Assembly: GCA_016870915.1 (NCBI GenBank)
Contig: VFZY01000041.1
Span: 1-36,452 of the forward strand
Source of the DNA: Acidobacteriota bacterium
GTDB lineage: Bacteria; Acidobacteriota; Terriglobia; Bryobacterales; Bryobacteraceae
Reading direction: 5' to 3'
DNA: 36,452 bases
Shown here: piece by piece, positions 14,794 to 34,464 of the stretch
Position numbering within the stretch: the stretch's first letter is position 1
Layout: each line of letters starts with the position of its first letter
The notes under the pieces: model-generated
The model's input: the letters and a program-made list of their open reading frames with translations, nothing else
What the model was told of the DNA's origin: nothing
Database searches by the model: none
Made by a program: the position numbers and the translations under genes

Positions 14794-15093
14794 GGGGTCT
14801 TGTGTGGGCTTGCCCGGGACTTGGCTCGGATTGGCTGGGCTCGATTTGGTCTGGAATCAACAGATTAAACTGCGATCAATTTGGTCGCCGGAGCCGGTTG
14901 GATGGTTTTCGGGGGGTGTTGCGGGGAAGCCCGGCGAAACCCTGCCGAAAACGGCAAAAAAAGCGGGTGTGGGAAGCCCAAAATCGCGTTCACGTCGAAG
15001 TGAAAACTATTTTTGCCTTGTTTTCAGTGATTTACGCGGGCGATGGCCGAATTCCGGAACGGGCCGTTTGTAGATTACACAGTGAGAGGCGAT
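14794..15093. other. Intergenic region between divergent isc operon and phage-type cluster
   Basis: About 300 bases without a convincing gene. It should contain the promoter of the rightward phage-type cluster, but I see no clear -35/-10 pair. There is a 7-base inverted repeat TGAAAAC (15001-15007)/GTTTTCA (15020-15026) that could be an operator. A small TGCCG-AAAA-CGGCA hairpin lies near 14943 with an A run after it, which is not a terminator on either strand. The stretch is locally more AT-rich around 15000-15030. No tRNA or direct-repeat att-like sequence was noticed. Confidence 0.5.
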
Positions 15094-15354
15094 ATGCGCG
15101 GCACGAAACCAAAAAACAATTCAGAAGAGACCAGTGACGCTACCAAGCCGCAACGGCGGATGAGCCCCAAGAAGTTAGTGGTGGAACTCATCAAGAAAGC
15201 CCAGACGGATCTGCTGAACGAGAAGAACAAGCTCTCGCTGGCGGATCTGGTCCGGCTGCTCCAGATGGAAAAGGAGTTCAAGACGGCCGAGGCCACCGAG
15301 ATCCGGTTCCGTTGGGTGAAACCCGACGGAGACGGTGAGGCCACCGGCGAATGA
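15094..15354 (+). CDS. Small protein in terminase-small-subunit position
   Basis: An 86-residue basic N-terminus/helical protein. ATG 15094 (MRGTKPKNN) is preferred because GAGAGG lies about 6 bases upstream; an in-frame ATG at 15043 has no such site. A charged, probably disordered start is followed by a helical stretch (PKKLVVELIKKAQTDLL, LSLADLVRLLQMEKEFK). The frame overlaps the large terminase by 4 bases (ATGA), the coupling commonly seen between terminase subunits. I cannot recognise a helix-turn-helix or a named family, so the terminase role is inferred from position only. Confidence 0.55.
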   Translation: MRGTKPKNNSEETSDATKPQRRMSPKKLVVELIKKAQTDLLNEKNKLSLADLVRLLQMEKEFKTAEATEIRFRWVKPDGDGEATGE

Positions 15355-16676
15355 GTGAACGGCGGAAGGGCGGTGGAACGCGGGGATCCGTGAAGGAGAT
15401 CCGTATTGAGTACGATGCGCTGCCGTCCCAGGCCAAGTTCCACAATTCGACGGCGCGGTTTAAGGGCTTTTCGGGTCCCGTCGGATCCGGAAAAAGCGAG
15501 GCCTTGTGCCATGAGGCGCTCCTGTTGGCGTTGGCCAATCCGGGGCGCGTGGGTTTGCTGGGCGCACCCACGTATCCGATGCTGCGCGACACGGCGCAGC
15601 CCACTCTGATGAGAGTTCTGACCGATGCGGGCATCGGGTTCGAATTCAACCGCTCGGAAAACTACCTGCTGGTGGCGCCAACGAAATCGAAGATCCTGCT
15701 GAGAAGCGTCGACGAGTTCGAAAGGCTCCGCGGCACGAACCTTGCATGGTTCGGACTGGATGAACTGACATATACCCACGAAGAGGCCTGGACACGCCTT
15801 GAGGGCCGCCTCCGCGACCCCCAGGCGCAGCGTCTGTGCGGCTTTGCCGTCTGGACGCCGAAGGGCTTCGATTGGGTATACCGGCGCTTCATCCGCGACC
15901 GTGTGGACGGCTATGAAACCATCATTGCCGCGCCGCACGAAAACCGGCACATTCTGGAGAAGATCCCGGACTACTATGAACGGCTGAAACGAAGCTACAC
16001 GACTGCCTTCTATGAACAGGAAGTGCTGGGTGTGTACCGCGATTCGCAGCGCGGGCGGGTCTACAACGAGTTCGACCGGCTGAAGCATTTCGGCCCGGCG
16101 CGGCCGGTGGATCCGGCGCGGCCGCTGCTGTGGGCATTGGATTTCAACGTGAATCCAATGTGCTCCGTGGTGGCGCAACTGGATGAAAGCGGCGTGTTGT
16201 GGGTGTTGGATGAAGTGGTGCTCGACCGGGCGTCCACGAATCAGGCCTGCGTGGAATTTCTGCGGCGGTACGGGGCTCATCCGGGGGGCTACATCATTTA
16301 CGGCGACGCGAGTTCGAACCAGATGCGGACCAGCGGACCGACGGACCAGCAGATCATGCGGCGCGCGTTCCTCCACAAGGGCAATCACGACGTGGACTAC
16401 AGGATTCCGAAGACGAATCCGCTGGTGCGGGAGCGGGTGGCGCTGGTGAATTCGATGCTGATGAGCGCCGCGGGCGACATCAAGCTTTACATCGCGGACC
16501 GGTGCGAGAACTTGGCACGCGATCTGGAAGAGGTGCTGTACAAGGACGGCAGCGCGGAAGTCGACAAGGATCGCGACCCGCGTCTGACGCACCTGTCCGA
16601 TGCGCTGGGCTATCTGGCATGGCAGGAATGCCGGCCGAAGCCGCCCATCGGACATCAGGAACATCCGCTCGTTTAG
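15351..16676 (+). CDS. Phage terminase large subunit
   Basis: A 441-residue packaging motor with ATPase and nuclease domains. Walker A is GPVGSGKS at 42-49, preceded by the adenine-site-like ALPSQAKFH. Walker B is LAWFGLDE at about 131-138, with the catalytic Glu at 138. The RNase H-like nuclease domain shows acidic residues D264 (WALDFN), D319 (YGDASSNQ) and D417 (LSDALGYL). Size and motif order fit large terminases of tailed phages and GTAs. Every catalytic motif is intact, so the motor should be active. Whether it packages by headful or from a specific site cannot be read from sequence. Confidence 0.9.
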   Translation: MSERRKGGGTRGSVKEIRIEYDALPSQAKFHNSTARFKGFSGPVGSGKSEALCHEALLLALANPGRVGLLGAPTYPMLRDTAQPTLMRVLTDAGIGFEFNRSENYLLVAPTKSKILLRSVDEFERLRGTNLAWFGLDELTYTHEEAWTRLEGRLRDPQAQRLCGFAVWTPKGFDWVYRRFIRDRVDGYETIIAAPHENRHILEKIPDYYERLKRSYTTAFYEQEVLGVYRDSQRGRVYNEFDRLKHFGPARPVDPARPLLWALDFNVNPMCSVVAQLDESGVLWVLDEVVLDRASTNQACVEFLRRYGAHPGGYIIYGDASSNQMRTSGPTDQQIMRRAFLHKGNHDVDYRIPKTNPLVRERVALVNSMLMSAAGDIKLYIADRCENLARDLEEVLYKDGSAEVDKDRDPRLTHLSDALGYLAWQECRPKPPIGHQEHPLV

Positions 16677-16694
16677 ACGGGCAAGGAAGAGGAC

Positions 16695-18077
16695 ATGGAC
16701 CAAATCACTCTGGAGCATCCGGACTACGCGGCCCGGAAGAAATCATGGCGCCAGTACGGGGATCTCTACACGGGTGGTGAGATCTTCCGGCTGAACGCGG
16801 CGGAGTATCTGACGGCACGGCAGCGGGAACCCGCCGATGTCTATCAGGAGAGGCTGAATCGCGTTTTCTGCGAGAATTACGTGGGGTCGATCATCGACTG
16901 GTACGCGGCGACGCTGTTCCGGAGGGAACCGGTGATCGCGCTGGAGAACGCGCCTCCAGGCTGCTCCACTTTTTATCACTGCTTTCTGGACGACGCCGAT
17001 CAGCGGGGCTCTTCGCTGACGGATTTCTTCCGCCGGCAATTGACCAGCGCCCTGATCTACGGCGCCAGCTATACGCTGGTGGACTTTCCGCGGACGGGCA
17101 TGGCGCCGGCCAACCGGGCCGAAGAGGACCGGATGGGGGTGTCGAGGGCGTACGTGGTGGGATACACGCCACTGGACCTCATCAACTGGAGCCGGGACGA
17201 GCGCGGCAACTTTGACTGGGTGGTGCTCCGAACCACCAGCCTGAACAAACGCGACGTCGCGGCGGCGCAGTGGACGGAGGAGACGCAGTGGGCGTACTAC
17301 GACCGGTCCTCGTTTCAGCGCTACCGGCAGGTGAAGCAGGGTGACAAGGTGGAACCGATCGAACTGGTCGATCAGGGTCCGCATGGGCTGGCGGCGCAGA
17401 ATGTTGTGCCGGTGTTCGAAATGCAGGTGAGCGACGGGCTGTGGCTGATGAACAAGGCCGCGCGCCTGCAGCTTGAACACTTCAACCAGTCGAACGCCCT
17501 GTCGTGGGCGCTGACCACGGGCCTTTTCGCGGTGCCGGTGGTGTTCAGCGAACGCGACATGTCGCAGCGCATCGGGAGTTCGTACTTCATTCAGTTGGGC
17601 AGTGAGGACCGGTTCGCCTGGAGCGAGCCGGAGGGCAAGGTCTACCAGCTTGCGGCCAACAATCTGGCGCGGGTGAAGGACGAGATCTACCGTGTGTCGT
17701 ACCTGATGGGGCAGGCGGGCGGGCCTCCGGGCTCGGCGCAGCAGCAGTCGGGTTTGAGCAAGCAGCGCGATTATGCGGTGACGCAGGAAGTGCTGCGGGC
17801 GTACGGCGATCTGGTGAAGGCGGCGATGAAGCGTATTCTGCGGGCCATCGAATCGGCGCGGGATGACGGCATGACCATCGACGTTTCCGGTCTGGACGAG
17901 TTCGACATCGGCGACTTCACCAGCGACCTTGAGGACGCCGGCCGGCTGCTTTCGCTGGGCATTCCGTCCGAGACGCTGAAGCGCGAGGTGTTCAAGAAGG
18001 TGGCTTTGAAGTATCTGTGCGATGTCCGGAACGAAGTGAAGGACGCAATTGCGCAGGAGATCTCGCGGGTGATCTGA
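16695..18077 (+). CDS. Phage portal protein (DUF4055-like)
   Basis: A 460-residue protein immediately after the terminase (18-base gap, AGGAAGAGG ribosome site), the standard place for the portal through which DNA enters the head. The N-terminal part (YGDLYTGGEIFRLN, YQERLNRVFCENYVGSIIDWYAATLF) resembles portals of the DUF4055 group. The central region (YVVGYTPLDLINWSRDE, QWAYYDRSSFQRYRQV) is typical of portal wing and stem domains. The C-terminal helical portion (LRAIESARDDGMTIDVSGLDEFD) would make the crown. I see no fused protease or head-morphogenesis domain. Position makes the role secure; the family name is from recollection of similar sequences. Confidence 0.8.
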   Translation: MDQITLEHPDYAARKKSWRQYGDLYTGGEIFRLNAAEYLTARQREPADVYQERLNRVFCENYVGSIIDWYAATLFRREPVIALENAPPGCSTFYHCFLDDADQRGSSLTDFFRRQLTSALIYGASYTLVDFPRTGMAPANRAEEDRMGVSRAYVVGYTPLDLINWSRDERGNFDWVVLRTTSLNKRDVAAAQWTEETQWAYYDRSSFQRYRQVKQGDKVEPIELVDQGPHGLAAQNVVPVFEMQVSDGLWLMNKAARLQLEHFNQSNALSWALTTGLFAVPVVFSERDMSQRIGSSYFIQLGSEDRFAWSEPEGKVYQLAANNLARVKDEIYRVSYLMGQAGGPPGSAQQQSGLSKQRDYAVTQEVLRAYGDLVKAAMKRILRAIESARDDGMTIDVSGLDEFDIGDFTSDLEDAGRLLSLGIPSETLKREVFKKVALKYLCDVRNEVKDAIAQEISRVI

Positions 18078-18105
18078 CCCGGCTGGCGAATCAAAGGAGC
18101 AATAC

Positions 18106-18675
18106 ATGGAAGCTGAGATGAACAACAACCAGGACAACGGGGCCGCCGATGTCCGGAGCCTGGTGCGCGAAGCCATACAGGAGTTCGTTCGCGCCGAGCA
18201 GTCCAAGAAGGAGCCGGCTTACCAGGCCGAACTCGTCGAGGAACGGCGGCGGCGTGAGCAGCTTGAGCGCAAGTTGAACGAACTGGCCGAAGAGAACCGG
18301 CGGAACCGGCAGATGGCGGAAGAGGCCGACAGGCACTCAGCCATCCGCGCCGAGCTCCAGCGGCTGGGCGTGACGAAGGTCGATCTGGCGTTCAAGGCGG
18401 TGCGGGATGACGTCCGGCGATCGGAGAGCGGCACTCTGATTGCCGGCGAGGGCGTGGGACTGCGGGATTACCTGCAGGGCTTCGTCACCGAAAATCCCGA
18501 ACTGCTTCCGGCGCGGATCGCGGGCGGATCGGGCATGGCGGCGGCGCACAAGCCGCATCCGGCTCAGCCCGAGGAGATCGACATCGACAAGATCAAACCG
18601 GGCATGAGCCCGCAGGACCTTGAAAAGGTCCGTCTGGAGATCGCGCGGCTGGCGAGCCAGAGTTTGAGGGGATAA
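18106..18675 (+). CDS. Putative capsid scaffolding protein
   Basis: A 189-residue, highly charged protein between portal and major capsid genes, where tailed phages keep the scaffold or the maturation protease. It has no Ser/His protease motif. Residues about 20-95 are strongly helical and probably coiled coil (AELVEERRRREQLERKLNEL, AEENRRNRQMAEEADRH). A Gly/Pro/His-rich linker follows, then a short helical end (SPQDLEKVRLEIARLASQS) that could bind coat protein. AAAGGAG precedes the ATG; a second in-frame ATG 12 bases later is possible. The scaffold role is inferred from position and composition. Confidence 0.6.
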   Translation: MEAEMNNNQDNGAADVRSLVREAIQEFVRAEQSKKEPAYQAELVEERRRREQLERKLNELAEENRRNRQMAEEADRHSAIRAELQRLGVTKVDLAFKAVRDDVRRSESGTLIAGEGVGLRDYLQGFVTENPELLPARIAGGSGMAAAHKPHPAQPEEIDIDKIKPGMSPQDLEKVRLEIARLASQSLRG

Positions 18676-18740
18676 ACGCGATGTGGGGCCGGGCCGTTAA
18701 CGCCTGGCTGTGATATCGCGAACCGCCGGGCCCGGACAAG

Positions 18741-18778
18741 CGGGGCCGTCCCGACCAGGGGCGGCCCCGTTTGCTTTT
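18741..18778 (+). terminator. GC-rich hairpin with T-rich tail before the capsid gene
   Basis: Perfect 8-base stem CGGGGCCG (18741-18748)/CGGCCCCG (18762-18769) with a 13-base loop, followed by TTTGCTTTT. It looks like a rho-independent terminator or attenuator, but lies inside the gene cluster, 42 bases before the capsid start. It could instead protect a processed capsid mRNA. Confidence 0.6.
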
Positions 18779-18820
18779 GAATGGCTCGGCAACACACGAG
18801 ACAGGAAGAAAGGAACAACA

Positions 18821-19732
18821 ATGCCTGCTATTACTTCTGCCAATCTGGCGAATGCGATCGTGAAAATGGTGGCGGCCGAGTCGCTGCCCGCGTTGAGGGG
18901 GAGCCTCGTGATGGGGAACCTTGTGAACCGGGACTTCGAGCCGGTGCTGGCCAATGCCGGCGATACGGTGAACGTACCGATTCCACCCTCCATGACCGTC
19001 CAGAACATTGGCGAAACCGGAACGGTGAACACGCAGAATCCGAACGTCGGCAACGCGCAGATCGTGTTGAACAGGCACTTCGAGGCTTCGTTCTCGATTC
19101 CGGATGTGACCAAGGCGTTCGCCTCGCCGGAGCTCCTGAAGCTGTACCTGGAGCCCGCCGTGTCCGCGATCGCCGAACAGGTGGAGACGGACCTGCTGGC
19201 CACCGCGAGCAGCTTCACCGCCAACCCCGCCGTGGGCACCTACGGCGCGGCGCTCACCGAAAGCTCCATCGACACCGCCGAGACCACCCTCTTCACCAAG
19301 AAGGTGCCGATGTCGGCGCCCCGTTACCTGGTGGTGGACCCGACGGCCTACGGCCAGCTGCGCCAGATCGCGCGGTTCAGCGAATTCCAGACCGCCGGTG
19401 AGGCGGGCCTGAAGGCTCTTGTGGACGGACAGGTGGGCCGGTTGAAGAACTTCTATGTCTTCCGGTCGCAGTTCGTTCCCAAGGCGGGTACGGCTCCGGT
19501 GCAGACCAGCAACCTGGCGTTCTCCAAGAACGCTCTGGGCCTGGTGATCCGCCGCCTGCCCAAGCCGCTGCCGGGCACAGGCGCCATCGCCGAGTACGCC
19601 GAGGCGGGCAACTTTGGCGTGCGCGTGGTGATGAGCTACACGCCGAACACGCTGGCCCAGCAGTTCACCGTGGACATCCTGTATGGCTACGGCATTCTGC
19701 GCAACGATCACGGCGTTCTGGTCCGCAGCTAA
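18821..19732 (+). CDS. Major capsid protein (HK97-fold, possibly P22-coat-like)
   Basis: A 303-residue shell protein. I start at ATG 18821 (MPAITSANLANAIVKM), preceded by AAGAAAGGA; the open frame upstream crosses a hairpin and is not protein-like. The text DFEPVLANAGDTVNVPIPPS, followed by VLNRHFEASFSIPDVTKAF and YLEPAVSAIAEQVETDLL, is typical of coat proteins of the P22-coat group. RYLVVDPTAYGQLRQIARF and the C-terminal SYTPNTLAQQFTVDILYGYG also fit. There is no long cleavable N-terminal delta domain, in keeping with the separate scaffold gene and absent protease. Strong GC hairpins flank the gene on both sides, perhaps to set its mRNA level. Confidence 0.82.
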   Translation: MPAITSANLANAIVKMVAAESLPALRGSLVMGNLVNRDFEPVLANAGDTVNVPIPPSMTVQNIGETGTVNTQNPNVGNAQIVLNRHFEASFSIPDVTKAFASPELLKLYLEPAVSAIAEQVETDLLATASSFTANPAVGTYGAALTESSIDTAETTLFTKKVPMSAPRYLVVDPTAYGQLRQIARFSEFQTAGEAGLKALVDGQVGRLKNFYVFRSQFVPKAGTAPVQTSNLAFSKNALGLVIRRLPKPLPGTGAIAEYAEAGNFGVRVVMSYTPNTLAQQFTVDILYGYGILRNDHGVLVRS

Positions 19733-19756
19733 GCGGTCCGGGGGCGTGGTGCGATT

Positions 19757-19790
19757 GCGGGTCCGGGGGGCGTCTGCTCTCCGGGCCCGC
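19757..19790 (+). other. Strong GC hairpin after the capsid gene
   Basis: Ten-base stem GCGGGTCCGG (19757-19766)/CCGGGCCCGC (19781-19790) with one G-T pair and a 14-base loop, 24 bases after the capsid stop. No T tract follows, so it is more likely an mRNA-stabilising or processing structure than a terminator. Confidence 0.5.
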
Positions 19791-19816
19791 GAAACGAATG
19801 GACAAGGAGTCAACCA

Positions 19817-20161
19817 ATGGACTTGAGATCGTACTACCAGAAGATGCGCGACGTGCGCGCGAAGATCGCGGACGCGCATGTGGTGATCGTCAGCCTGGGC
19901 ACCAGCGACGGTGGCGTGGCGGGCGAACTTCGCGAGGTGAAGCGTGAGACCGCCGCGCAACTGATCGTCGACCAGCGCGCGCGCCTGGCTACCGCCGAAG
20001 AAGCCGGCGCCTACCGGGCTGGCATCGCGGAGGAGCACCGCAAGCACGTGGAGGAGAGCCGGCTCAACCAGTTTCACTACACCATCGTGAGCGACACGCA
20101 GCTTCAGTCGCTTGTGGCCAGCCAGTCCGCGGCACAGCAGAAGAAAGGCGGGAAGCCGTAG
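19817..20161 (+). CDS. Hypothetical phage-type protein downstream of the capsid gene
   Basis: A 114-residue soluble protein preceded by AAGGAG. The N-terminal half is helical with a hydrophobic strand (ADAHVVIVSLGTSDGGVAG). The rest is charged helix (REVKRETAAQLIVDQRARLATAEEAGAYRAG) and the C-terminal end is Gln/Lys-rich. I recognise no family. Genes here in tailed phages often encode head decoration proteins or connector pieces; that is only a positional guess. It is followed after 18 bases by the next cluster gene. Confidence 0.6.
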   Translation: MDLRSYYQKMRDVRAKIADAHVVIVSLGTSDGGVAGELREVKRETAAQLIVDQRARLATAEEAGAYRAGIAEEHRKHVEESRLNQFHYTIVSDTQLQSLVASQSAAQQKKGGKP

Positions 20162-20179
20162 CGCTTTCCGGAACGGATC

Positions 20180-20929
20180 ATGGCACTGTTTACCGATAAC
20201 CCGCTCCGCACCGTTGCGGATCTTCATCAATACGAAGCCGGCGTGCTTGAAACGGCGAACGTCGAAAGCATCGACCTGACTGCGAAGCTCGTGCTGGCGC
20301 AGGGCGAGATCGGCAATCAGGTGGCGCTGTTTCTCATCCAGCGCGGCGTGTACCAGGACGACGGCATCCGCGCCGCCCTGTCGCACGTGGCCGTGACCCC
20401 GCCGCTTGAGCAGTGGCACGCCTATCACACGCTGGCGATGATCTATCGCGACGCGTTCCACAGCCAATACAATGACCGCTATCAACCCAAGTGGAAGGAG
20501 TACGAGCGGCAGGCCGACCTGACCGGCACTCTCGCTTTCCAAACGGGCATTGGCATTGTACCGGCGCCATTGCCGCGGCCTTCGCAACCGCCGGTGGACC
20601 GGATTGCCGGCGCCGTGCCCAACGGAAGCTACATGTTCCAGGTGACGTGGGCCAATTCAATCGGCGAAGAGAGCGCCCCGAGTGAAGCGCTGCTGTTTGA
20701 GACCAATGACGGCTCAGCCGCGCAGTTTCGCGTGGAGAACGCTCCCGCACTGGCCACCGGCTGGAACCTCTACGCGGCGCCGGCGGGTGAGACCCCGACG
20801 CGGCAGAACAGCCTTCCGCTGGGCTTGAGCGAAACCTGGACGCTGCCTCCGGACGCATTGGCAGCGGGACCTGTGGCCGGCACGGGACAGGCGCCGGTCT
20901 ACTACGTCCGAAGCGAATTCAGGCGGTAA
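20180..20929 (+). CDS. Putative head-tail connector with C-terminal fibronectin-III-like domain
   Basis: A 249-residue two-part protein. Residues 1 to about 115 are mainly helical (DLTAKLVLAQGEIGNQVALFL, EQWHAYHTLAMIYRDAFHSQYN), as in head-completion adaptors that sit below the portal. A Pro-rich linker (PAPLPRPSQPPVD) leads to a beta-sandwich at about 130-249 (NGSYMFQVTWANSIGEESAPS, GWNLYAAPAGETP), which resembles fibronectin-III or Ig-like surface domains of virions. The giant hub gene downstream contains a similar module. Location between capsid and tail tube supports a connector role, but no diagnostic motif is present. The ribosome site (GGAACGG) is weak. Confidence 0.6.
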   Translation: MALFTDNPLRTVADLHQYEAGVLETANVESIDLTAKLVLAQGEIGNQVALFLIQRGVYQDDGIRAALSHVAVTPPLEQWHAYHTLAMIYRDAFHSQYNDRYQPKWKEYERQADLTGTLAFQTGIGIVPAPLPRPSQPPVDRIAGAVPNGSYMFQVTWANSIGEESAPSEALLFETNDGSAAQFRVENAPALATGWNLYAAPAGETPTRQNSLPLGLSETWTLPPDALAAGPVAGTGQAPVYYVRSEFRR

Positions 20930-20932
20930 ACC

Positions 20933-21430
20933 ATGGCGCAAACAGCAACAGTCTCAGTGCGCCGCACCGCGGAGGTGCTGCAGGGGAACTCGGGGCTCGA
21001 CTTCTCGCTGGCCAGTGTGACGGCCGGGGAACAGGGTGAGCTCCAGCAACTGCCGCCCGCGCGAGTGGTGGCGCAGAACGTGGTGGCCGATGTGGCCGAG
21101 AAGGGTCCGGGAGTGACCTACCCGGTGGTGTATCTGTTCTGCGACAAGGTGGAGAACCGCCTTCGGGAGAAGTTCAGGACGTTTTCCGGCAAGGCCCATC
21201 TGACCATGGATGTGCGTGTGACGGACCATCATCTGGGCACGATTGAGGACCGGCTGCGGCTCTACGTGGACGCGGCCACTCAGGTGCTCGACAACCATCG
21301 TGGCGATTGGGGCGAAGGCATGTACTTCGCCGGTGGCTACGAGGTGACATTCTCTCCGGTCAAAAGGGGAGGCAAGAATTACGTGCAGACCGCGAAGGTG
21401 CAGTTCGACCTGGACGTGAGTCTGGATTAG
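20933..21430 (+). CDS. Putative tail-completion/tail-terminator protein
   Basis: A 165-residue protein placed directly before the tail tube, where tailed phages encode the tail terminator that caps the tube. Visible features are a mixed alpha/beta pattern with VTYPVVYLFCDKVENRLREKF, the beta-strand KAHLTMDVRVTDHH, then an amphipathic helix (DRLRLYVDAATQVLDNH) and a final strand pair (YEVTFSPVKRGG, VQTAKVQFDLDVSLD). This alternation of strands and helix fits the small alpha/beta fold of terminators such as lambda gpU, but I cannot name a family. It starts 3 bases after the upstream stop. Confidence 0.6.
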   Translation: MAQTATVSVRRTAEVLQGNSGLDFSLASVTAGEQGELQQLPPARVVAQNVVADVAEKGPGVTYPVVYLFCDKVENRLREKFRTFSGKAHLTMDVRVTDHHLGTIEDRLRLYVDAATQVLDNHRGDWGEGMYFAGGYEVTFSPVKRGGKNYVQTAKVQFDLDVSLD

Positions 21431-21442
21431 GAGAAGAATGCC

Positions 21443-22615
21443 ATGGCTTGTTACATCTCAACCAATGCCAACCGGTTCTACCTGGCCGATGAGCCAGCGT
21501 TCGGAACCGTGCCCGCTATCACCGCGCAGAACCGCGTTCCGGCGCTCCGGCTGGAGGCCCGCCAGGAACTGGCGCGCTCCGTGCGGCGCGACAAGACCGG
21601 AAGCCGCACCTTTGCGGGGCTGCCGGCGAACATGCGCCGGTCGACACAGTACGCGCTATCGAGCTACATGACCAGTTGGGGGAACACGGCCCAGCCGCCG
21701 TTGCATGGGCCTCTGTTCAAATCCGCACTGGGGAGCGATGCGCTGATGTTCACGGGCGGAACCGTGGCCGCGGGCACCACCGCCACCCAGATCGTCTTCA
21801 GCGTGAACCATGGCCTGGGCGTGGGCCAGGGTATCCGGTTCGGCGGCGAGATTCGATTCGTTACGGCGATTGTCAGCCCGGTGGCTGTGATTGTGAATGC
21901 TCCGTTCACGATCACGCCGTCGTTGGGTTCGCCGATTGGGGCCACGGCCAGCTATGCACCGCGCACGGAGCTGCCCAGCATGTCGATTTTCGACTACTGG
22001 AGCCCCGCGACAGCTGTGCAGCGGATCGTGCGCGGGGCGGGCGTCGACCGCCTGCGAATCCGCGTCAACGGCGACTTTCACGAGTTTGAAGCCAGCGGGC
22101 CGGCGGCCGACCTTCTGGACACCGCCAGCTTCCAGGCGGGAGCCGGCGCGCTGACGGCGTTCCCGCCCGAGCCTGCCATCTCGGGTTTCGACTACAACAT
22201 CATCCCGGGCCATCTTGGCCAGGTATGGATTGGCACCGGGCCGGACCGGTTTCATACGCTCACCGACGCCGAAGTGATCATCGACAACAACATGTCGACG
22301 CGCGAACTGGAGTTCGGCGCCGATTCGGCCCGGTGTCTGGCGCCGGGTGAACGCAGCGTTCAACTGCGATTCTCGCTCTTTGAGATGGACGATGACGCGA
22401 CTCGCGCCCTGTATCAGGCCGCGCGGACGCGTTCGCCCATTCCGGTGATGATTCAGCTTGGGCAGACACAGGGCCAGTTGTTCGGTGTCTTCATGAGCTC
22501 GATGATTCCGGAAGTTCCGGAGTTCAGTGACCGCGAGACGCGATTGGTGTGGAACTTCTCCGAGTCCCGCGCACAGGGGGTGGCCGATGACGAAATCTTT
22601 GTTGCGTTCGCCTAA
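21443..22615 (+). CDS. Putative tail tube (major tail) protein with inserted domain
   Basis: A 390-residue beta-rich protein in the tail-tube slot, preceded by AGGAGAAG. The first 85 residues (RVPALRLEARQELARSVRRDKTGSR and on) and the last 170 (LGQVWIGTGPDRFHTLTDAE, TRELEFGADSARCLAPGERS, LFEMDDDATRALYQAARTRS, PVMIQLGQTQGQLFGVFM) look like the tube fold. The segment at about 105-180, which is Gly/Thr/Val-rich (GTVAAGTTATQIVFSVNHGL), may be an extra surface domain. This makes it larger than common tube subunits (about 150-250). It overlaps the next gene by 29 bases. The role is inferred from order relative to the chaperone and tape-measure genes. Confidence 0.65.
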   Translation: MACYISTNANRFYLADEPAFGTVPAITAQNRVPALRLEARQELARSVRRDKTGSRTFAGLPANMRRSTQYALSSYMTSWGNTAQPPLHGPLFKSALGSDALMFTGGTVAAGTTATQIVFSVNHGLGVGQGIRFGGEIRFVTAIVSPVAVIVNAPFTITPSLGSPIGATASYAPRTELPSMSIFDYWSPATAVQRIVRGAGVDRLRIRVNGDFHEFEASGPAADLLDTASFQAGAGALTAFPPEPAISGFDYNIIPGHLGQVWIGTGPDRFHTLTDAEVIIDNNMSTRELEFGADSARCLAPGERSVQLRFSLFEMDDDATRALYQAARTRSPIPVMIQLGQTQGQLFGVFMSSMIPEVPEFSDRETRLVWNFSESRAQGVADDEIFVAFA

Positions 22616-22985
22616 CGCGGTGCGGTACGAAAGCAGCCGCGTGGTTGAGTCGGCCGCGCTGCCCGGGGTGAGGTTCACGGTGCGGCGCATGTCCTATGGC
22701 CGCCGGTCTGAACTGATCGCCCGGATGCGCGACCTGATGCGGCGCGCCGAGTTTCACGAGGCATCGCCGGCGCTCGACGGCAAGGCCGAGGCGAGCCTGC
22801 TGGCGATGGACGTGGACAAGCTCTACCTGGAATGGGGCCTGGCACAGGTGGACGGTATCGAGATCGACGGGTTGCCGGCGACGGCGGCCAGCCTGATCGC
22901 GAGCGGTCCCGAGGAGTTGTGCCGCGAGATCGCGCAGACTATCAAGGCCGAATGCGGGCTTGACGAGGAAGAACGAAAAAACTGA
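22587..22985 (+). CDS. Tail assembly chaperone, G-like (0-frame product)
   Basis: A 132-residue helical protein starting at ATG 22587 (MTKSLLRSPNAV) with AGGGGG about 8 bases upstream, inside the end of the tail tube gene. It contains GVRFTVRRMSYGRRSELIARM, a helix-rich middle and a negatively charged end (KAECGLDEEERKN). G-type chaperones coat the tape measure during tail assembly, and in most siphophages a fraction of ribosomes shifts -1 near the end to make a longer GT protein. That is seen here: the last sense codons are CGA AAA AAC before TGA, an ideal slippery site. The gene lies between tube and tape measure as expected. Confidence 0.75.
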   Translation: MTKSLLRSPNAVRYESSRVVESAALPGVRFTVRRMSYGRRSELIARMRDLMRRAEFHEASPALDGKAEASLLAMDVDKLYLEWGLAQVDGIEIDGLPATAASLIASGPEELCREIAQTIKAECGLDEEERKN

Positions 22986-23031
22986 TCGTCGCCTTCCACT
23001 TCCAATACTCCGAACAGGCCGCCTGGAAGTG
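22976..23031 (+). promoter_or_regulatory. Programmed -1 ribosomal frameshift signal
   Basis: The heptamer A AAA AAC (22976-22982) is in exact phase with the G-like frame (CG A|AAA|AAC|TGA), immediately before its stop. Fourteen bases further on begins a perfect 8-base stem, CACTTCCA (22997-23004)/TGGAAGTG (23024-23031), with a 19-base loop, which could stimulate slippage, although 5-9 bases is the more usual spacing. The -1 frame is open without interruption from the heptamer to the TGA at 23318-23320. Confidence 0.78.
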
Positions 23032-23320
23032 CGACTCGTGCAGACAGAGCGGCCTCGATGTGACACGGCGGTGCGGATTCCTGGGCAGGCCGGAGGTGCG
23101 CGATGAGCGGCCCCGGCCGCCGGTGTGGGTCCGCCGCCGTGTCTCGTCCGATGAGTGTCCGAAGTCGTTGATCACAGGCCGGAGCATGGCCTGGATGGAG
23201 TTGTTCTGGTTCTGGAAGACGTTTGGCGGCGTGGATCTGATGTCGCTGGCGGCTCGCGATGTGGATGCTTTGATCGTGCTCGAAACCGAATGGAGGAAGG
23301 AAGCTCATGACGTTGGATGA
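22982..23320 (+). CDS. T-like extension of tail chaperone (made by -1 frameshift)
   Basis: This 112-residue frame has no good start of its own at its beginning. It is entered by slippage from the G-like gene, giving a fusion of about 244 residues. It begins LIVAFHFQYSEQAAWKC and includes cysteines in CDSCRQSGLDVTRRCGF, a possible small zinc knuckle. A Trp/Phe-rich helix follows (SMAWMELFWFWKTFGGVDL), then VDALIVLETEWRKEAHDVG. In lambda the T domain recruits tail tube subunits to the tape measure. A GTG at 23060 could in principle start an 86-residue product, but that would remove the conserved-looking opening. It overlaps the tape-measure start by 14 bases. Confidence 0.7.
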   Translation: MIVAFHFQYSEQAAWKCDSCRQSGLDVTRRCGFLGRPEVRDERPRPPVWVRRRVSSDECPKSLITGRSMAWMELFWFWKTFGGVDLMSLAARDVDALIVLETEWRKEAHDVG

Positions 23321-23918
23321 CATTCAAAACGACTTGCGCCGTCTGAGCGACGGCGTCCGCCTGGCGGCGGTGGCGAGCGCCTTGCAGGCTCCCTCGCGCA
23401 ATGAGGCGGCGGCCGATGGCGCGGACCCGCTAACGCAGGCGATCGGCGCGTTGAACGGCCAGATTGAGGCTCTGCGCGGAGTCTATGCATTGCAGACGGA
23501 CTCCGCCTCGGCACAGACAGAGGCGTTGCAGGACAATACGCGGGCACAGATCGCCTCAGCGGCATCGCGTGGATCGGTAGCGGCGCGCGCCGGATCGGGC
23601 GTATTGGGGCACCTGCTTTCGGCGAATCCTCTGGCCGGTGCTGTTGCCCGTCTGTTTGGCGGACGGCCGGAGCCTGCTCCGGCGCCGTTGGCGATCACGC
23701 CGCGGCCGCCTTCGATTGCGTTTGAAGGCGTGGTGGGCGCGACGCCACCCCGTGCGGCGGCCCCGCGGCCGGCCGCGGCTTCGGTGGCGAACATCACGGT
23801 GCAGGTGCAGGCGCTGGATTCACGGTCCTTCGTCGACCGGCGTGACGACATCGCCCGGGCGGTGCGTGAGGCGATGCTCGAGTCGCATGCCCTGAACGAC
23901 GTGATCTCGGAGATCTAG
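23307..23918 (+). CDS. Very short tape-measure-like protein
   Basis: A 203-residue protein after the G/GT chaperones, the fixed place of the tape measure that sets tail length. AGGAAGG precedes the ATG. Helical N-terminal half (MTLDDIQNDLRRLSDGVRLA, ALNGQIEALRGVYALQTDS), then a small hydrophobic Gly/Leu/Ala segment (SGVLGHLLSANPLAGAVARLF), a Pro/Ala-rich linker, and a C-terminal unit (ANITVQVQALDSRSFVDRRD, IARAVREAMLESHALNDVIS). Most siphophage tape measures exceed 600 residues. By the usual rule of about 0.15 nm per residue this one would give a tail near 30 nm. RcGTA also has a tape measure of about this size. Role inferred from position. Confidence 0.62.
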   Translation: MTLDDIQNDLRRLSDGVRLAAVASALQAPSRNEAAADGADPLTQAIGALNGQIEALRGVYALQTDSASAQTEALQDNTRAQIASAASRGSVAARAGSGVLGHLLSANPLAGAVARLFGGRPEPAPAPLAITPRPPSIAFEGVVGATPPRAAAPRPAAASVANITVQVQALDSRSFVDRRDDIARAVREAMLESHALNDVISEI

Positions 23919-23920
23919 CC

Positions 23921-24280
23921 ATGCCGCAGTTTCCTATTCTCAAGACCGGCGCCGTGGCCCAGTATCCGCTGCGGCGTGACACGCTGCACGCGGTGCGGAC
24001 ACTCCGATTCGTGGATGGAACCGAGCAGCGGTTCCGGCAGAGCGCGGGACCGCTCAAGCGGTGGACCATTGCCCTGGCTCTGCTGGACGAAATCGAGCTG
24101 TCCTCGCTGCGGCGATTTTTCCTTGAGGCGAAGGCCCAAGGTGGTTTTTTTTCTTTTACCGATCCGCTGGATGGAAGCAACCATCCGAACTGCGTGATCG
24201 AAGGCGACGAGTTCGAGGCTTTGCTTGAAGGCGATCTGAGAGCTTCGGCGTCCCTGGTGATCAGCGAGGCACGAGACTGA
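23921..24280 (+). CDS. Distal tail protein, short paralogue
   Basis: A 119-residue protein: FPILKTGAVAQYPLRR, LRFVDGTEQRFRQS, WTIALALLDEIELSSLRRFFLEAKAQGG, FSFTDPLDG. This sequence of a beta strand pair, a helix ending in FF, and F-x-DP-x-D resembles DUF2460-type distal tail proteins found after the tape measure in GTAs and siphophages. The N-terminal region of the next gene has the same pattern, so the two appear to be tandem paralogues. Its codons include an 8-T run at 24145-24152 (Gly-Gly-Phe-Phe-Ser). Stop and next start overlap as TGATG. Confidence 0.65.
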   Translation: MPQFPILKTGAVAQYPLRRDTLHAVRTLRFVDGTEQRFRQSAGPLKRWTIALALLDEIELSSLRRFFLEAKAQGGFFSFTDPLDGSNHPNCVIEGDEFEALLEGDLRASASLVISEARD

Positions 24281-25074
24281 TGTTGACCTTTCCGCAATTG
24301 AGTTCCGGCGCCATGGGCCAGTTCCCCCTCAAGGCGCGCGTTTCCCGGCGCACTGTGACCAACCGCGGCGCCGGCGGCTCACTGGTGCAGTGGGTTGATC
24401 CAAGCTGGGCATTTGTTGAGTGGGATCTGCGGCGCGACGATCTGTCGGCCTCCGAATGGGAAGCGGTGGAGATGCTGTTCGCGGACACCGAGGGCGGCCT
24501 GCTGCCGTTCACGTTTCTTGATCCCATGGACAATCTGCTGCGGTGGAGCGAGGATCTTGCTTCCGCGGTCTGGGTGAAGGGTTCGGGGATCCAACTCACC
24601 GCCGGTCTTGCCGATCCCCTGGGCACTACACGGGCCGTGCGCGTGCGCAACACCGGGGCCACACCGCAGCGTCTTTCGCAGACCATTGCCGCGCCCGCGG
24701 ACATGACCTACTGCTTCAGCGCGTACCTGCGCGCCTCCGCGGCCACCACTGCAAGGCTGGTGCGGGCCTCGGGTGTTTCGGAGGAGAAGGCCGCGGCAGC
24801 CGGCTCCGCCTGGCGGCGCTTTGCCACCAGCGGAAATCTGGGCGGCGCTGGCACCACGATGACGTTCAGCGTGGACCTGGACCCGGGCGCGGAAGTGGAT
24901 GTATTCGGGCTGCAGGTGGATGCGCAGCCGGCGGCATCGCCGTACAAAGTGACAACGAATGGAAGCGGCGTCTATCCGGATGCGCGCTTTGGAAGCGATG
25001 AACTGCGGGTGACCGCGGGATCGCTGGGGTTGAATTCCGCCACGGTGCACATCGTGGCAAGGCTTGAGGGGTAA
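24280..25074 (+). CDS. Distal tail protein with C-terminal carbohydrate-binding-like domain
   Basis: A 264-residue protein. Residues 1-85 repeat the plan of the preceding protein (FPQLSSGAMGQFPLKA, LSASEWEAVEMLFADTEGG, PFTFLDPMDN). Residues 86-260 form a beta-sandwich of the sort attached to phage tail proteins (NLLRWSEDLASAVWVKGSGI, RLSQTIAAPADMTYCFSAYL, WRRFATSGNLGG, VDVFGLQVDAQPAASPYKV), which in related proteins is read as carbohydrate-binding. It may contact the cell surface. It overlaps its upstream neighbour by one base and ends 4 bases before the hub gene. Family names are from recollection; the duplication is seen in the sequence. Confidence 0.65.
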   Translation: MLTFPQLSSGAMGQFPLKARVSRRTVTNRGAGGSLVQWVDPSWAFVEWDLRRDDLSASEWEAVEMLFADTEGGLLPFTFLDPMDNLLRWSEDLASAVWVKGSGIQLTAGLADPLGTTRAVRVRNTGATPQRLSQTIAAPADMTYCFSAYLRASAATTARLVRASGVSEEKAAAAGSAWRRFATSGNLGGAGTTMTFSVDLDPGAEVDVFGLQVDAQPAASPYKVTTNGSGVYPDARFGSDELRVTAGSLGLNSATVHIVARLEG

Positions 25075-25078
25075 TGGC

Positions 25079-28000
25079 ATGCCAGACATTCACATGATCA
25101 AGGAACAGAGCGTTCCCGAAACTCCGCTGGTGATCTTCGACTGCGAGTTCCCCTCGGGCCAGGTGCATCGCTGGTCGACCCACCGTGTGACGGTGGAAGG
25201 GGAAGAGTACAGCCCGCGTGTGCTCGGCCACAGCCTCTTCGATTTGCGCAGCGGGGCCGACGAAGGGATCGATGCGGCGTCGAAGATCGCACTGACGCTG
25301 GCCAACGCGGACTCCCTGGCCTCCCAGTTGGACCGGGCGGAAGGGTTCAAGGGTTCCAAGCTCACCGCACGATTTGTGTTCCAGGACCTGAAGACTGATA
25401 CCACATCCGCCGGCCCGGTGGTGGTCTTCCAGGGTTTGGGCAACGCCCCCGAGGACATTACGGAGAGCGAACTGCGCGTGTCGTTTGGCAGCCGGTTGAG
25501 CCTGCAGCGGATCGCTGCGCCGGCCCTTCGCATCCAGCGGCACTGCCAGTGGACGTTTCCCGAGACGGCCGCTCAGCGGCAGGAAGCGGTGAGCGGGGGC
25601 GACCGCGGGAAGTACTCGCCGTATTTCCCCTGCGGGTATTCACCGGATCAGCCGGGCGGCAGCGGCAACCTGAATGGGGCGGCGCCGTTTACCTCGTGCA
25701 ACTTCACGCGGTCGCAGTGTGCCGAGCGTGGCATGCTATCGACCGACTCGGCCAGCCGCCCCACGCGGCGGTTTGGCGGCATCGGCTTTGTGCCAGCAAA
25801 CGTGCTGGTGCGCAGCCACGGCGAACGCGGCATGCATGTCTCCGCGGCAGCGGACAATCGCGCCGTCTACAACGACACCGTGCCCATGATCTATGGCACG
25901 TGCTGGTATCAGCCGCCCGTGACGCTGGCGCGAAACGACGGCAACCTGACGCGGATGGAAGTGCTGCTGGGCCTGGGCGAGATTCAGGGCGTACTGAAGG
26001 TTCTGGTGAACGGTGTCGAGGTCCCACAGGGGCAGGCGGGCCGCAACATGACCGGGACGGGGTGGTTCAATCCCGTGAGCCTGGGCAATCGAACCGGCAA
26101 CTACAACCTGGACTTCACAGCGGGCGCACCGAACACCGATGGGGACCCTTATGGCAGCATGGCTGTGCTTTCGGTTGTGGTGCCCAGCCGGCTGAGCTCC
26201 GGAGCGGCGCTGCCGCGTGTGGAAGTGCTGGTGCAGGGCCTGAAGCTTTCGGTATTCGACGAGGCCGGCCTGTACGTGGGAGAGCAGTTCACGAACAATC
26301 CGGCCTGGGTTCTGCTGGACCTGCTGCGCCGCAGCGGCTGGGATCACGATGAGTTGGATCTGGCAAGCTTCGGCAAGGCGGCGGTGTTTTGCGCAGGCAC
26401 CGTGCCATCGCAGGATCTGAACGGAAACCCGATCAGCATCCCCCGCTATCAATGCAACCTGCCGCTGCGGCGCCGGCGCAGTCTGGCCGATGTTGTGCGC
26501 GGTGTGCGGCTGGGGGCGGCGTTGTTTCTGGCGTATGGAATCAACGGGCGGCTGCAACTCTTCCCCGAGGGGTCTCTTGCTTCTCAGCAGCCGATGAAGC
26601 CGGCGGGCAGCAACGCGGCGGCGGTGCTGAATGGCGGATGGCCCGCCTATGAGTTCGGCGACGGCGTGAATGGGTCGTCGGGCCTGCTGCGGCGGGACAA
26701 TGGCGAGCCGGCGATCCGGTTCTGGTCGCGAAGCAATGCGGAGACACCGAACCGGTTCTCCGTCGAGTTCCAGGATGAGTTGAATGAGTTCCAACAGGAC
26801 AGCCTCTCTCTGGTCCATTCAGGCGATTCGGCGCGAGCCGGGCAGGAGGTTCAGGCCGTGCTGCCGGCGATGGGTTTGCCGAATCCCGATCAGGCGGCAC
26901 GCATCGCCCGCCTTGCTCTAGACCGCGCCGTGCTGGGCAACCGGTACGTGGAGTTCGAGACCAGCATGAAGGGGCTGGGCTTGCGACCGGGCGATCTGAT
27001 CACCTTGACGTACTTGAAGGAAGGTCTGAACCGGACTCCCTTCCGGGTGACTAAGGTGTCGCCGCGGTTGAACTTTGAAACAGTTCTGATTACCGCGCAG
27101 ATCCACGACGATGCCTGGTACGGACGGACGGGACTGGCGCATTCGACGGGACGGCGCCAACCGGATCACGATCTCGCGGCGCCGCGCCCATTGGTCGGCA
27201 CGGTGGCCGGCTCGGATGGCCGTACTGACTTGGGGATCGCGGAAACGGCTGTGGAACAGGCGGATGGATCCGTGCTGGTCCAGTTGGCGGCTTCGTTCGT
27301 GGCTCCGGCGAAACCGGTGCCAGGAAAAGTGGGTGTTCCCCTGCTGAGCCTGTCTCCGGTGATCGCTTCGACCGGGGGCACACTGGCGGGAAATCAGACT
27401 CTGTACTACGCCGTGAGTGGCGTCGACGCTGGGGGCAATGAGGGGCCCCTGTCGTTCGTGGTGCGGGCTGTGATTCCGGCCGGCACGAACACGAACAAGG
27501 TGACTCTCACGGGGCTGAGCCTGCCCGCGGTGGCTGCGATGCGGCGCGTGTATCGTGGGCCGAGCCCGCGGCAGTTGCTGCGGATTGCCGAGTCGGCGGT
27601 ATCGGGAAACCAGTTCGTTGACGAGGGCGTGGCAGCCATGCTGTTGCCTCCGCCCGACGACCAGTTCGATCACGCCAACGTGTACTGGCGGCCGGAAGTG
27701 TTGGCTGAGACGCAGGCGGACTTGTTTGGGGCGTCTTCCGTGGGTGCGTCGGGGCTCGCGCTGAGCGTGAACGCTTATCGTGGCATGACGGTGCGGATCA
27801 CGCGCGGGAAGGGCGCGCCGCAGGAGCGGACGATTGCCGCGAATACGGATACAGCGTTGTCGGTATCGAGCCCGTGGGATATCGTTCCGGATGGCTCAAG
27901 CTACTTCGCGGTGGCTGAGTCGAGCTGGCGCTTTGGCGCGCGGACGGAGTCCAGCCCGGCCGTGATCGAGGTTCCCAATCGTGCCGGGGAGACGGTGCAC

Positions 28001-28996
28001 GTACTGGGTGCGGCGGCCAATGCGCAGGATGTTGAGTGCCCCTATGAGATCTCGCCGGTGACGCGAGTTCAGGTGACGGGCGACGGTGGGATGAACCAGG
28101 ATGCGTATGTGCCTGGAGAACCCGTCTACTCACTGTTCACGCCGGGCGATGGAACGCTGAGCATCGCTGGCTTTGGTTTCGCTTCCCTTGAGAACACCCG
28201 GACTATTGAGGGCGCCTCCATCACGGTGCATCTGGTGGATGAACTGGCGCCGGTCAAGGGCATGCTGGCAAGCTCGGCCACCGCGGGCGCCGGCGTGTTG
28301 ACGATTTCCTCGCCCATGGCAGTGGGCGCGGGCGACTACCTGCAGGTGGGCAGCGAGATCGTGCTTCTGGACGCCGTGGCCGGAACCGCGCTGACGGTTA
28401 CCCGAGGGCAGTTGGGTACGACGGCGGTGAGCCATGCGAGCGGTGCGATGGTTTGGAAGCTGGAGCGCCGTGTGCGGGTGATCCCGTTTGTTCGCGACTT
28501 TTTCGGGGGCGAGGGAAGCGGCGACTTCAGCCATTCCATCGAACTGCCGTACGCCCGTGTTGCCGCTACGGAAGTGGTGATGACGAACTCACGGGGTGAT
28601 AGCCCGGTTGGAGTGGTCTCGGTGACGGATGGGGCCGACCTGGGTTTGCGGACTTTCGGAGGCGGGCAGTACGCCATTCAGGTGGAGGGCTTCCTGGCGA
28701 TTCAGTCGAAGGCGGCTCCGCCGCTGGTGGTTGAGGCTCCGCGCTCGCCGCGCGACGTGTTCGCGGTGTTGAACCAGGCGCCCATGGGTGGCGCGGTGAC
28801 GCTTGAGGTGCGGCGCGGGCCGGCGTTGTACTGCTCCCTGACGGTGGCCAGCGGAAGCACGGTGTCGAACGTGGTGAATGGAGCTACGGTTGCGGCGCTG
28901 GCGGCATCCGACGAGGTGACGGTGGACATCGTATCGGTGCCGCCGGGGGCGGCGGGCACTCCGGGCCGCGACCTGACTGTCGTCATCCGGACCTGA
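25079..28996 (+). CDS. Giant tail hub/host-specificity protein (gpL-gpJ-like fusion)
   Basis: A 1305-residue protein started at ATG 25079 (MPDIHMIKEQ) with GAGGGG 8 bases upstream. Residues 1-150 resemble DUF2163-type tail proteins. Residues 150-240 hold C156, C185, C207 and C214 ahead of RRFGGIGFVP; the C-x21-C-x6-C part resembles the Fe-S-binding domain of lambda-type tail-tip protein gpL. From about 268 the text MIYGTCWYQPP, LLGLGEIQGVLKVLVNGVEV is typical of baseplate hubs. The middle (about 560-690) carries long beta structure like gpJ. Fibronectin-like modules follow (about 755-870), then Gly/Val/Thr-rich beta domains to the end, likely receptor-binding. No NlpC/P60 peptidase is visible. 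Confidence 0.75.
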   Translation: MPDIHMIKEQSVPETPLVIFDCEFPSGQVHRWSTHRVTVEGEEYSPRVLGHSLFDLRSGADEGIDAASKIALTLANADSLASQLDRAEGFKGSKLTARFVFQDLKTDTTSAGPVVVFQGLGNAPEDITESELRVSFGSRLSLQRIAAPALRIQRHCQWTFPETAAQRQEAVSGGDRGKYSPYFPCGYSPDQPGGSGNLNGAAPFTSCNFTRSQCAERGMLSTDSASRPTRRFGGIGFVPANVLVRSHGERGMHVSAAADNRAVYNDTVPMIYGTCWYQPPVTLARNDGNLTRMEVLLGLGEIQGVLKVLVNGVEVPQGQAGRNMTGTGWFNPVSLGNRTGNYNLDFTAGAPNTDGDPYGSMAVLSVVVPSRLSSGAALPRVEVLVQGLKLSVFDEAGLYVGEQFTNNPAWVLLDLLRRSGWDHDELDLASFGKAAVFCAGTVPSQDLNGNPISIPRYQCNLPLRRRRSLADVVRGVRLGAALFLAYGINGRLQLFPEGSLASQQPMKPAGSNAAAVLNGGWPAYEFGDGVNGSSGLLRRDNGEPAIRFWSRSNAETPNRFSVEFQDELNEFQQDSLSLVHSGDSARAGQEVQAVLPAMGLPNPDQAARIARLALDRAVLGNRYVEFETSMKGLGLRPGDLITLTYLKEGLNRTPFRVTKVSPRLNFETVLITAQIHDDAWYGRTGLAHSTGRRQPDHDLAAPRPLVGTVAGSDGRTDLGIAETAVEQADGSVLVQLAASFVAPAKPVPGKVGVPLLSLSPVIASTGGTLAGNQTLYYAVSGVDAGGNEGPLSFVVRAVIPAGTNTNKVTLTGLSLPAVAAMRRVYRGPSPRQLLRIAESAVSGNQFVDEGVAAMLLPPPDDQFDHANVYWRPEVLAETQADLFGASSVGASGLALSVNAYRGMTVRITRGKGAPQERTIAANTDTALSVSSPWDIVPDGSSYFAVAESSWRFGARTESSPAVIEVPNRAGETVHVLGAAANAQDVECPYEISPVTRVQVTGDGGMNQDAYVPGEPVYSLFTPGDGTLSIAGFGFASLENTRTIEGASITVHLVDELAPVKGMLASSATAGAGVLTISSPMAVGAGDYLQVGSEIVLLDAVAGTALTVTRGQLGTTAVSHASGAMVWKLERRVRVIPFVRDFFGGEGSGDFSHSIELPYARVAATEVVMTNSRGDSPVGVVSVTDGADLGLRTFGGGQYAIQVEGFLAIQSKAAPPLVVEAPRSPRDVFAVLNQAPMGGAVTLEVRRGPALYCSLTVASGSTVSNVVNGATVAALAASDEVTVDIVSVPPGAAGTPGRDLTVVIRT

Positions 28997-29012
28997 CGCG
29001 CTATCCTGGAAC

Positions 29013-31642: not shown

Positions 31643-31645
31643 TCG

Positions 31646-34241: not shown

Positions 34242-34450
34242 GCCAGTTGCAGCCGGGGTATGTACTGAACGCGTTGCTTTATTCGGGCCTGGGCCTGCTG
34301 TTGTTCCTGGGTGTGATCCGGATCTTGTCGCGCATGATTCCAGGCGGAGCGTGGGAACAGATCGCGCACCAGAAGAACAGCGCGGTGGCGATCGCTTTCG
34401 GGTTGTTGGCGCTGAGCGCGGCCGTGATCATCGCCGCCACTTTGCACTGA
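34238..34450 (+). CDS. Small DUF350-like membrane protein
   Basis: A 70-residue protein with two hydrophobic spans (LNALLYSGLGLLLFLGVIRIL and VAIAFGLLALSAAVIIAATL) joined by a short loop (GGAWEQIAHQKNSA). This is the shape of one repeat of the DUF350 family, whose N/S-A-V/A-A-I motif is visible in KNSAVAIAFG. The function is unknown. It overlaps the GH31-like gene by 4 bases (ATGA) and is 14 bases before the beta-lactamase-like gene, so all three are probably co-transcribed. Confidence 0.75.
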   Translation: MSQLQPGYVLNALLYSGLGLLLFLGVIRILSRMIPGGAWEQIAHQKNSAVAIAFGLLALSAAVIIAATLH

Positions 34451-34464
34451 GAGGGGAGATACCG

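Follow-up and report, generated by a model that had tools for sequence, protein, structure and literature searches.

A candidate gene transfer agent locus with a P22-type coat in Bryobacterales and related families of Acidobacteriota

The 36,452-base window analysed here is an entire contig of the 6.6-Mb draft genome of an acidobacterium of the Bryobacteraceae, and it carries on its plus strand one continuous run of head and tail genes, from 15043 to 28996, hereafter called the cluster. This cluster quite probably encodes the structural parts of a gene transfer agent (GTA), which would have been domesticated from a tailed phage by a forebear of Bryobacterales and allied families and handed down vertically ever since. 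The operon runs in the order small-terminase-like gene, large terminase (TerL), portal, scaffold-like gene, P22-type coat, small gene, neck, tail terminator and tube, followed by frameshifted chaperones, a tape measure of 203 amino acids (aa), a DUF2460 distal tail protein (Dit), a second Dit-like gene and a hub of 1305 aa (Table 1), and the open frames are undamaged across the cluster in the window. The initial annotation had described a 14-kb cluster holding packaging, head and tail genes only; this description was borne out, the extent being slightly longer because the first, small-terminase-like open reading frame (ORF) overlaps TerL.

TerL was searched for in 151 genomes, 91 of which belong to the same family when the window's own genome is counted. 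At E 0.001 it was recovered from 78 of these 91 genomes; in 74 the match was long and reached at least 50% identity, mostly in single copy. The coat was recovered from 81. TerL and/or coat of the cluster form are present in 85 of the 91 genomes (71 of 76 genera), which answers the question, raised at the start, of whether close relatives keep the locus. Outside the family, TerL and/or coat were detected in G091 and G093 (family f2), G098 (f3), G111 (f4) and G119 (f12), and the cluster is absent from the f3 genomes of genus g78 among those listed. In a 396-genome sample of the phylum the hub was matched at E 1e-20 only in the window's genome, in G088 and, with a partial match of 31% identity, in G402; no hub match at this threshold came from G024, although it belongs to the family and was part of the sample. 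The partial hub of G402 (L312), which belongs to another family of the phylum, lies at a contig end and is perhaps part of another related particle.

Gene order is identical in the 19 other genomes having the full stretch, with all 14 genes from TerL onward in 17 of them and 13 in two, the missing matches being one small gene in G088 and the chaperone extension in G111; G015, the twentieth genome of this synteny set, stops after the scaffold gene. A survey of 55 genomes gave 43 with all 14 genes, and in 8 of the 12 incomplete ones the sequence stops at the edge of a contig. In a collection of species genomes, 199 stretches hold a coat relative, and the 80 listed were sorted by their neighbouring genes into 77 of cluster type and 3 undecided. 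These 80 stretches are titled as acidobacterial metagenome-assembled genomes (Bryobacterales, Solibacter, Sulfopaludibacter, Paludibaculum and others), plus two, L079 and L153, which carry the cluster under the titles Arcobacter and Acidimicrobiia and look mislabelled.

Vertical descent was examined by comparing a cluster tree, built on a concatenation of 11 proteins, with a host tree of rpoB alone in 26 genomes, 4 of 30 loci having been dropped on account of their rpoB (two copies in G082; partial in G064, G079 and G087). Each of the 10 rpoB splits with good support, including across families, reappears in the cluster tree, and 13 of 23 splits are common to both trees, label shuffles giving at most 3 (n=2000). 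The genomes of other families (G098, G111 and G119) branch alike in the two trees. Cluster and rpoB distances are correlated at 0.72 overall, with a shuffle maximum of 0.53, and at 0.68 within the family, where the shuffle maximum is 0.63 and 0 of 2000 shuffles reach the observed value. The GC content of the cluster (0.641) is that of its flanks (0.640 and 0.641), and cluster and host values are correlated over 20 genomes (r 0.82).

The ratio of nonsynonymous to synonymous substitution rates (dN/dS), a check proposed together with the candidate, was obtained by Nei-Gojobori (NG86) counting in 13 genes, the small gene after the coat and gene 1 being left out and the hub represented by one pair, from distinct and non-independent pairs at dS 0.1-0.8 in which identical sequences had been merged, some loci being one contig listed under two identifiers. 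Medians were low, from 0.09 to 0.21, with single pairs up to 0.48, and the pair G008/G079 gave 0.027-0.166 in the 12 genes shown. The 13 genes tested are under purifying selection among relatives. The residues of TerL which we take to be its Walker A (GKS), its Walker B (DE) and three nuclease aspartates are invariant in all 52 aligned sequences, in agreement with the earlier description of intact motifs. At the chaperone pair, presumably the G/GT arrangement of lambda, the frame following the upstream chaperone is -1 in 19 of 19 genomes for this region, and the slippery heptamer is in register at 118 of 124 distinct loci, the background of such runs being 0.098 per kb. The kept frameshift site suggests that tail assembly is still under selection.

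Scans of the cluster ORFs against the Pfam and PHROG libraries revealed no recognisable gene for integrase, repressor, replication or lysis, and none of the 5 matches to phage integrase PF00589 in a profile search of the genome lies on the cluster contig. The integrase search took in 20 genomes, with matches listed down to E of about 4e-11, a level at which weaker fragments could escape; among the matches listed, the integrases nearest to the cluster on cluster contigs are tens of kb off (G004 and G098). The window holds no tRNA, and no att-like direct repeats were detected flanking the cluster. Phage-lysozyme family PF18013, the one lysis family tried, had no match in the genome. A protease would not be expected with a P22-type coat that is preceded by a scaffold-like gene. 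The initial annotation had likewise seen no genes for integration, repression, replication or lysis, and the flanking integrase and att repeats that it had named as refuting a GTA were not found.

Related phages exist. Phage-type loci were found in three same-family genomes (G032:C144, G041:C156 and G053:C157) and on three IMG/VR contigs (L313-L315), with a homologous portal in 6 of 6 (30-35% identical), a homologous coat in 5 of 6 (55-68% identical) and a TerL in G032, G041, G053, L314 and L315. Coats of 63-68% identity are encoded by the same-family phage-type loci L256, L257 and L258, the last of which has, as named from ORF sequence, a phage gene content of single-stranded DNA-binding protein, ParB-like protein, HNH, dUTPase and a 944-aa tape measure. 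No hub homologue was found in the phage-type stretches examined, some of which may end short of the hub. In the TerL tree the cluster clade (31 rows) is separate from 4 phage relatives with support 100/99, so that nesting of TerL within phages, another sign named beforehand, was not seen. A hidden Markov model (HMM) of the small-terminase-like gene matched 139 of the 175 TerL-bearing loci, its seed members counted, and none of the 9 phage-type loci, among which L313 stops short of TerL. Among the matches listed in phage records, the best were at 34% for TerL (cyanophage KBS-S-2A) and 22-30% for the coat, and no hub match covered more than 9%.

Passages of PMC9662315 characterise GTAs by proteins derived from tailed phages, by vertical inheritance with co-diversification with the host and by a fully endogenised genome that is often spread over several loci, and further by particles that are too small to hold all of the agent's genome, contain mostly random host DNA and deliver it to other cells. 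The cluster has tailed-phage-derived proteins, diversified together with its host in the rpoB comparison and appears endogenised by its integrase-free contig, its host-like GC and the failure to find att-like repeats; integration and lysogeny genes standing alongside the structural genes, as in a temperate phage, were not found. The GTA reading put forward in the initial annotation withstood the refutation tests proposed with it.

Several observations weigh against this reading. TerL and coat are both absent from 6 of the 91 same-family genomes (G009, G010, G021, G051, G068 and G074), and G010 is well assembled (50 contigs, 96% complete). In G050 (L260) and G053 (L259) host-type genes stand directly before the portal and a cluster-type TerL was not found in the assemblies; both keep most of the downstream structural genes, with no tape-measure match in G050. 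Of 17 cluster splits with good support, four are missing from the rpoB tree, where they are unresolved, and the coat tree does not separate phages from the cluster (approximately unbiased test, p 0.468), therefore gene exchange with phages is possible. The dN/dS pairs exclude the window's own copy, which is too diverged, and the TerL and coat branches of its genome are fairly long. Stops were seen in the G012 hub, the G041 TerL and the G078 DUF2460 gene, to which is added one in the small gene of G055 that may be an artefact of ORF calling. In G047 (L039-L040) an ORF of 195 aa, 181 bp past the hub, resembles from its sequence the N-terminal part of a tyrosine recombinase. The bias of RcGTA towards cheap amino acids was not observed either, carbon per residue being not lower than in phage relatives for TerL (n=4), coat (n=5) and portal (n=6), and higher for the portal. 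The cluster is a strong candidate GTA and not a proven member.

The same gene content of head, TerL and tail would be needed by a domesticated killing particle of the PBSX kind, in which host DNA is packaged in the head and the particle acts as a bacteriocin with no delivery of DNA, and a large extra tail gene, which 15 of 20 genomes but not the window's have after the hub, could mean that target range varies by lineage. Such a particle is nevertheless unlikely, considering that the hub is conserved along its full length (40-54% identity in relatives) and is not fast-evolving, and that the few gene families recurring in at least 3 of 20 flanks are, as judged from sequence, unlike immunity or lysis genes. 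Domesticated phage parts take on several roles, and a particle serving another task, such as shedding DNA into biofilm or carrying some other cargo, would be compatible with a function that cannot be read from sequence and with the two genomes (G050 and G053) retaining particle genes without TerL. A motor with invariant catalytic residues and a tail with its hub have however been kept, a combination most in line with DNA delivery, and we hold another task to be quite improbable.

Temperate phages or satellites circulating only in the host's bacterial family would be in keeping with the related phages described above, some of them in the same genomes. This explanation is already contradicted by vertical descent, the cluster tree holding every well-supported host split, and also by the integrase-free contig, the mostly single copy per genome and the confinement of the best 80 IMG/VR matches to contigs of at most 20.7 kb; it was rejected on tree congruence and lack of integration genes, and its probability is very small. 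Stops in a few relatives, a TerL missing in two and the recombinase-like ORF of G047 are what a decaying prophage remnant might leave, and this explanation was rejected as scarcely credible on the grounds of dN/dS among relatives and the conserved frameshift, purifying selection acting on the 13 genes tested. The argument against simple decay, drawn at first from the intact frames, is reinforced by these results.

Should the cluster indeed be a GTA locus, the operon would be expressed in a minority of cells, where capsids would assemble around scaffold and portal. The small-terminase-like protein, in which no DNA-binding domain was recognised, may guide TerL, which would fill heads with largely random host DNA. 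Particles would be released by lysis genes encoded elsewhere, and short tails with the conserved hub would deliver the DNA to kin. Lysis and regulation genes, not found in the cluster, would then have to lie elsewhere in the genome.

Table 1. Positions in the window of the cluster genes, the frameshift site and the right-flank genes, all on the plus strand.
Feature	Position	Strand	Evidence
Small-terminase-like gene	15043..15354	+	Variable N-terminus, conserved C-terminal segment; HMM of 14 members
Large terminase TerL	15351..16676	+	phrog_2 E 6e-35; Terminase_6N E 2.8e-10
Portal protein	16695..18077	+	phrog_145 E 1.4e-51
Scaffold-like protein	18106..18675	+	Predicted role: upstream of coat, charged; 42-60% identity in relatives
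Major coat protein, P22-coat family, 303 aa	18821..19732	+	PF11651 P22_CoatProtein E 7.2e-17; phrog_283 E 4.3e-45
Small conserved gene	19817..20161	+	Present in 18/19 relatives with full stretch
Neck protein, adaptor by position	20180..20929	+	Helical part and immunoglobulin (Ig)-like part; weak phrog_8040 E 0.013
Tail terminator	20933..21430	+	AlphaFold model, predicted local distance difference test (pLDDT) 83.5; Foldseek matches in text
Tail tube protein	21443..22615	+	phrog_290 (minor tail protein) E 1.1e-5; tube role by size and position
Tail assembly chaperone, upstream frame	22620..22985	+	39-59% conserved; probably lambda G-like, by position
Chaperone downstream frame	22964..23320	+	Probably lambda GT-like
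-1 slippery heptamer A AAA AAC	22976..22982	+	Immediately ahead of upstream-frame stop codon
Short tape-measure protein, 203 aa	23307..23918	+	Conserved C-terminal motif (alignment); weak phrog_3779 E 0.024
Distal tail protein, DUF2460	23921..24280	+	PF09343 in 14/14 members, best E 9e-13, own E 7.4e-6
Second Dit-like/minor tail protein	24280..25074	+	Conserved; between Dit and hub; PHROG matches weak only
Tail hub/host-specificity protein	25079..28996	+	Phage-tail_3 E 7e-11 (10/10 members); phrog_31, phrog_1101
ABC ATPase, POT-type transporter, Xaa-Pro-type peptidase	29013..32809	+	ABC ATPase by Pfam; latter two from sequence

Among the packaging and head genes, the small-terminase-like gene matched no Pfam or PHROG family at E 0.01, and the scaffold-like protein had no family match in the library scans. 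The coat start, first placed at 18710, was corrected by alignment, giving a length of 303 aa in 19 of the 20 genomes measured and 304 in the remaining one; in a PDB profile search at E 0.01 the coat had 8zdh_A and 9jwb_A as sole matches, the RcGTA coat not being among them. The neck protein model (pLDDT 90.5) had no Foldseek match at E 0.001; its Ig-like part reached Z 8.9 to an SPO1 capsid chain, and its top structural ranks, made of the SPO1 capsid Ig-like domain and parts of latrotoxin, are uninformative. In the tail, the terminator model resembles the terminators of T5, of lambda (gpU) and of RcGTA (6tba_4A, E 1.6e-3) in Foldseek. The window's own DUF2460 score falls under the Pfam cut-off. 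The hub most likely starts at 25079 and gave weak matches only against PDB. In G098 (L064-L065) four additional ORFs stand between the tape measure and the DUF2460 gene (28592-32114).

Host genes, mostly named from sequence, lie on either side of the cluster: isc genes precede it, and genes for an ABC ATPase, a POT-type transporter and a peptidase follow it. The position between an isc operon and transport genes, as first described, holds in the window; isc is however not a conserved neighbour, recurring as an operon among 20 other genomes only in G047, downstream of the hub, and a conserved isc neighbourhood found no support. The right-hand neighbourhood is partly conserved: counting the window's genome, 13 of 48 genomes have at least one of the ABC, POT and peptidase genes no more than 9 kb past the hub, many of the remaining genomes being too short of sequence to tell. 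The extra tail gene after the hub, scanned against PHROGs, encodes about 900 aa. A lone relative of 1016 aa and 34% identity lies amid host genes of the window's genome (L308, G000:C47:25330-28380), and further relatives of about 30-36% are scattered through many genomes of the family. In f3, G103:C91:37091-39781 encodes a 52% identical extra tail gene in a genome without a coat match, perhaps as the remnant of a lost cluster. Elsewhere in the window, adjacent DnaE2-like and ImuB-like genes (4867-9362, minus strand; from sequence) show the pattern of a mutagenesis cassette, and an enzyme of the beta-lactamase family is encoded at 34231-35373 (PF13354 E 1.5e-49).

Coat relatives, of cluster and phage types together, are encoded by at least 557 stretches of IMG/VR. 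Of the best 80 of these (L156-L235), 79 are cluster-type and 1 is undecided, on contigs of 4-21 kb with none above 20.7 kb; by comparison, of the three contigs of phage type that were found, two measure 47 and 66 kb. The short contigs are consistent with a locus cut out of host contigs. Loci of this kind, though encoded by the host, appear to be entered as viruses in virus catalogues. Passages of PMC6172770 raise GTAs, with the host unnamed, as a possible source of bacterial DNA in soil virus preparations, for which the cluster would offer one source. We regard as evenly balanced the broader proposition, taken as a whole, that a P22-coat tailed phage was domesticated independently, at a depth matching the split of families within one class, and left almost every member of Bryobacteraceae with a functioning organ of gene transfer, that its loci are catalogued, probably by hundreds, as IMG/VR viruses, and that its particles could supply part of the bacterial DNA in purified soil viromes. 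Few GTAs have a known genetic basis, and a vertically inherited candidate that 85 of the 91 genomes sampled from one family have kept would be a testable case outside Alphaproteobacteria, with tree congruence, dN/dS, the frameshift site and the gene-1 HMM as a yardstick for telling GTA from prophage.

The likeness to RcGTA (Rhodogtaviriformidae) that had been pointed out stands for the layout and not for the coat type. Both systems have a compact head-tail operon of similar order, a short tape measure, a hub of about 1300 aa, a DUF2460 distal tail protein and a terminator of the same fold (6tba_4A); the RcGTA distal tail protein itself matched the DUF2460 protein of the cluster at E 0.74 only. 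The cluster differs by its phylum and by a P22-type coat with a scaffold-like gene, whereas RcGTA has a coat of HK97 type, and NlpC/P60, for which RcGTA has a gene, was not matched in the cluster. The small terminase of RcGTA (gp1) also appears, in passages of PMC6854486, without a helix-turn-helix, as the cluster's protein is without a recognised DNA-binding domain. Vertical descent is likewise shared with RcGTA as treated in passages of PMC9662315, and passages of PMC7947584 place RcGTA-like TerLs among headful packagers.

No GTA of Acidobacteria is described in passages of PMC5900883, PMC6172770 and PMC12142844, and the prevalence of GTAs is posed as an open question in part of PMC11841831. 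A 10.5-kb GTA-like operon of Faecalibacterium, as presented in part of PMC12946183, is like the cluster a candidate in a non-alphaproteobacterial metagenome-assembled genome, of another phylum; capsid-packaged DNA was sequenced in that study, while the cluster is known here from the genome. The GTAs of Bartonella (BaGTA), Brachyspira, Desulfovibrio and Methanococcus may be likened to the cluster in being phage-like, host-encoded and DNA-packaging, in different hosts, and passages of PMC9662315 and PMC11841831 hold that GTAs arose more than once.

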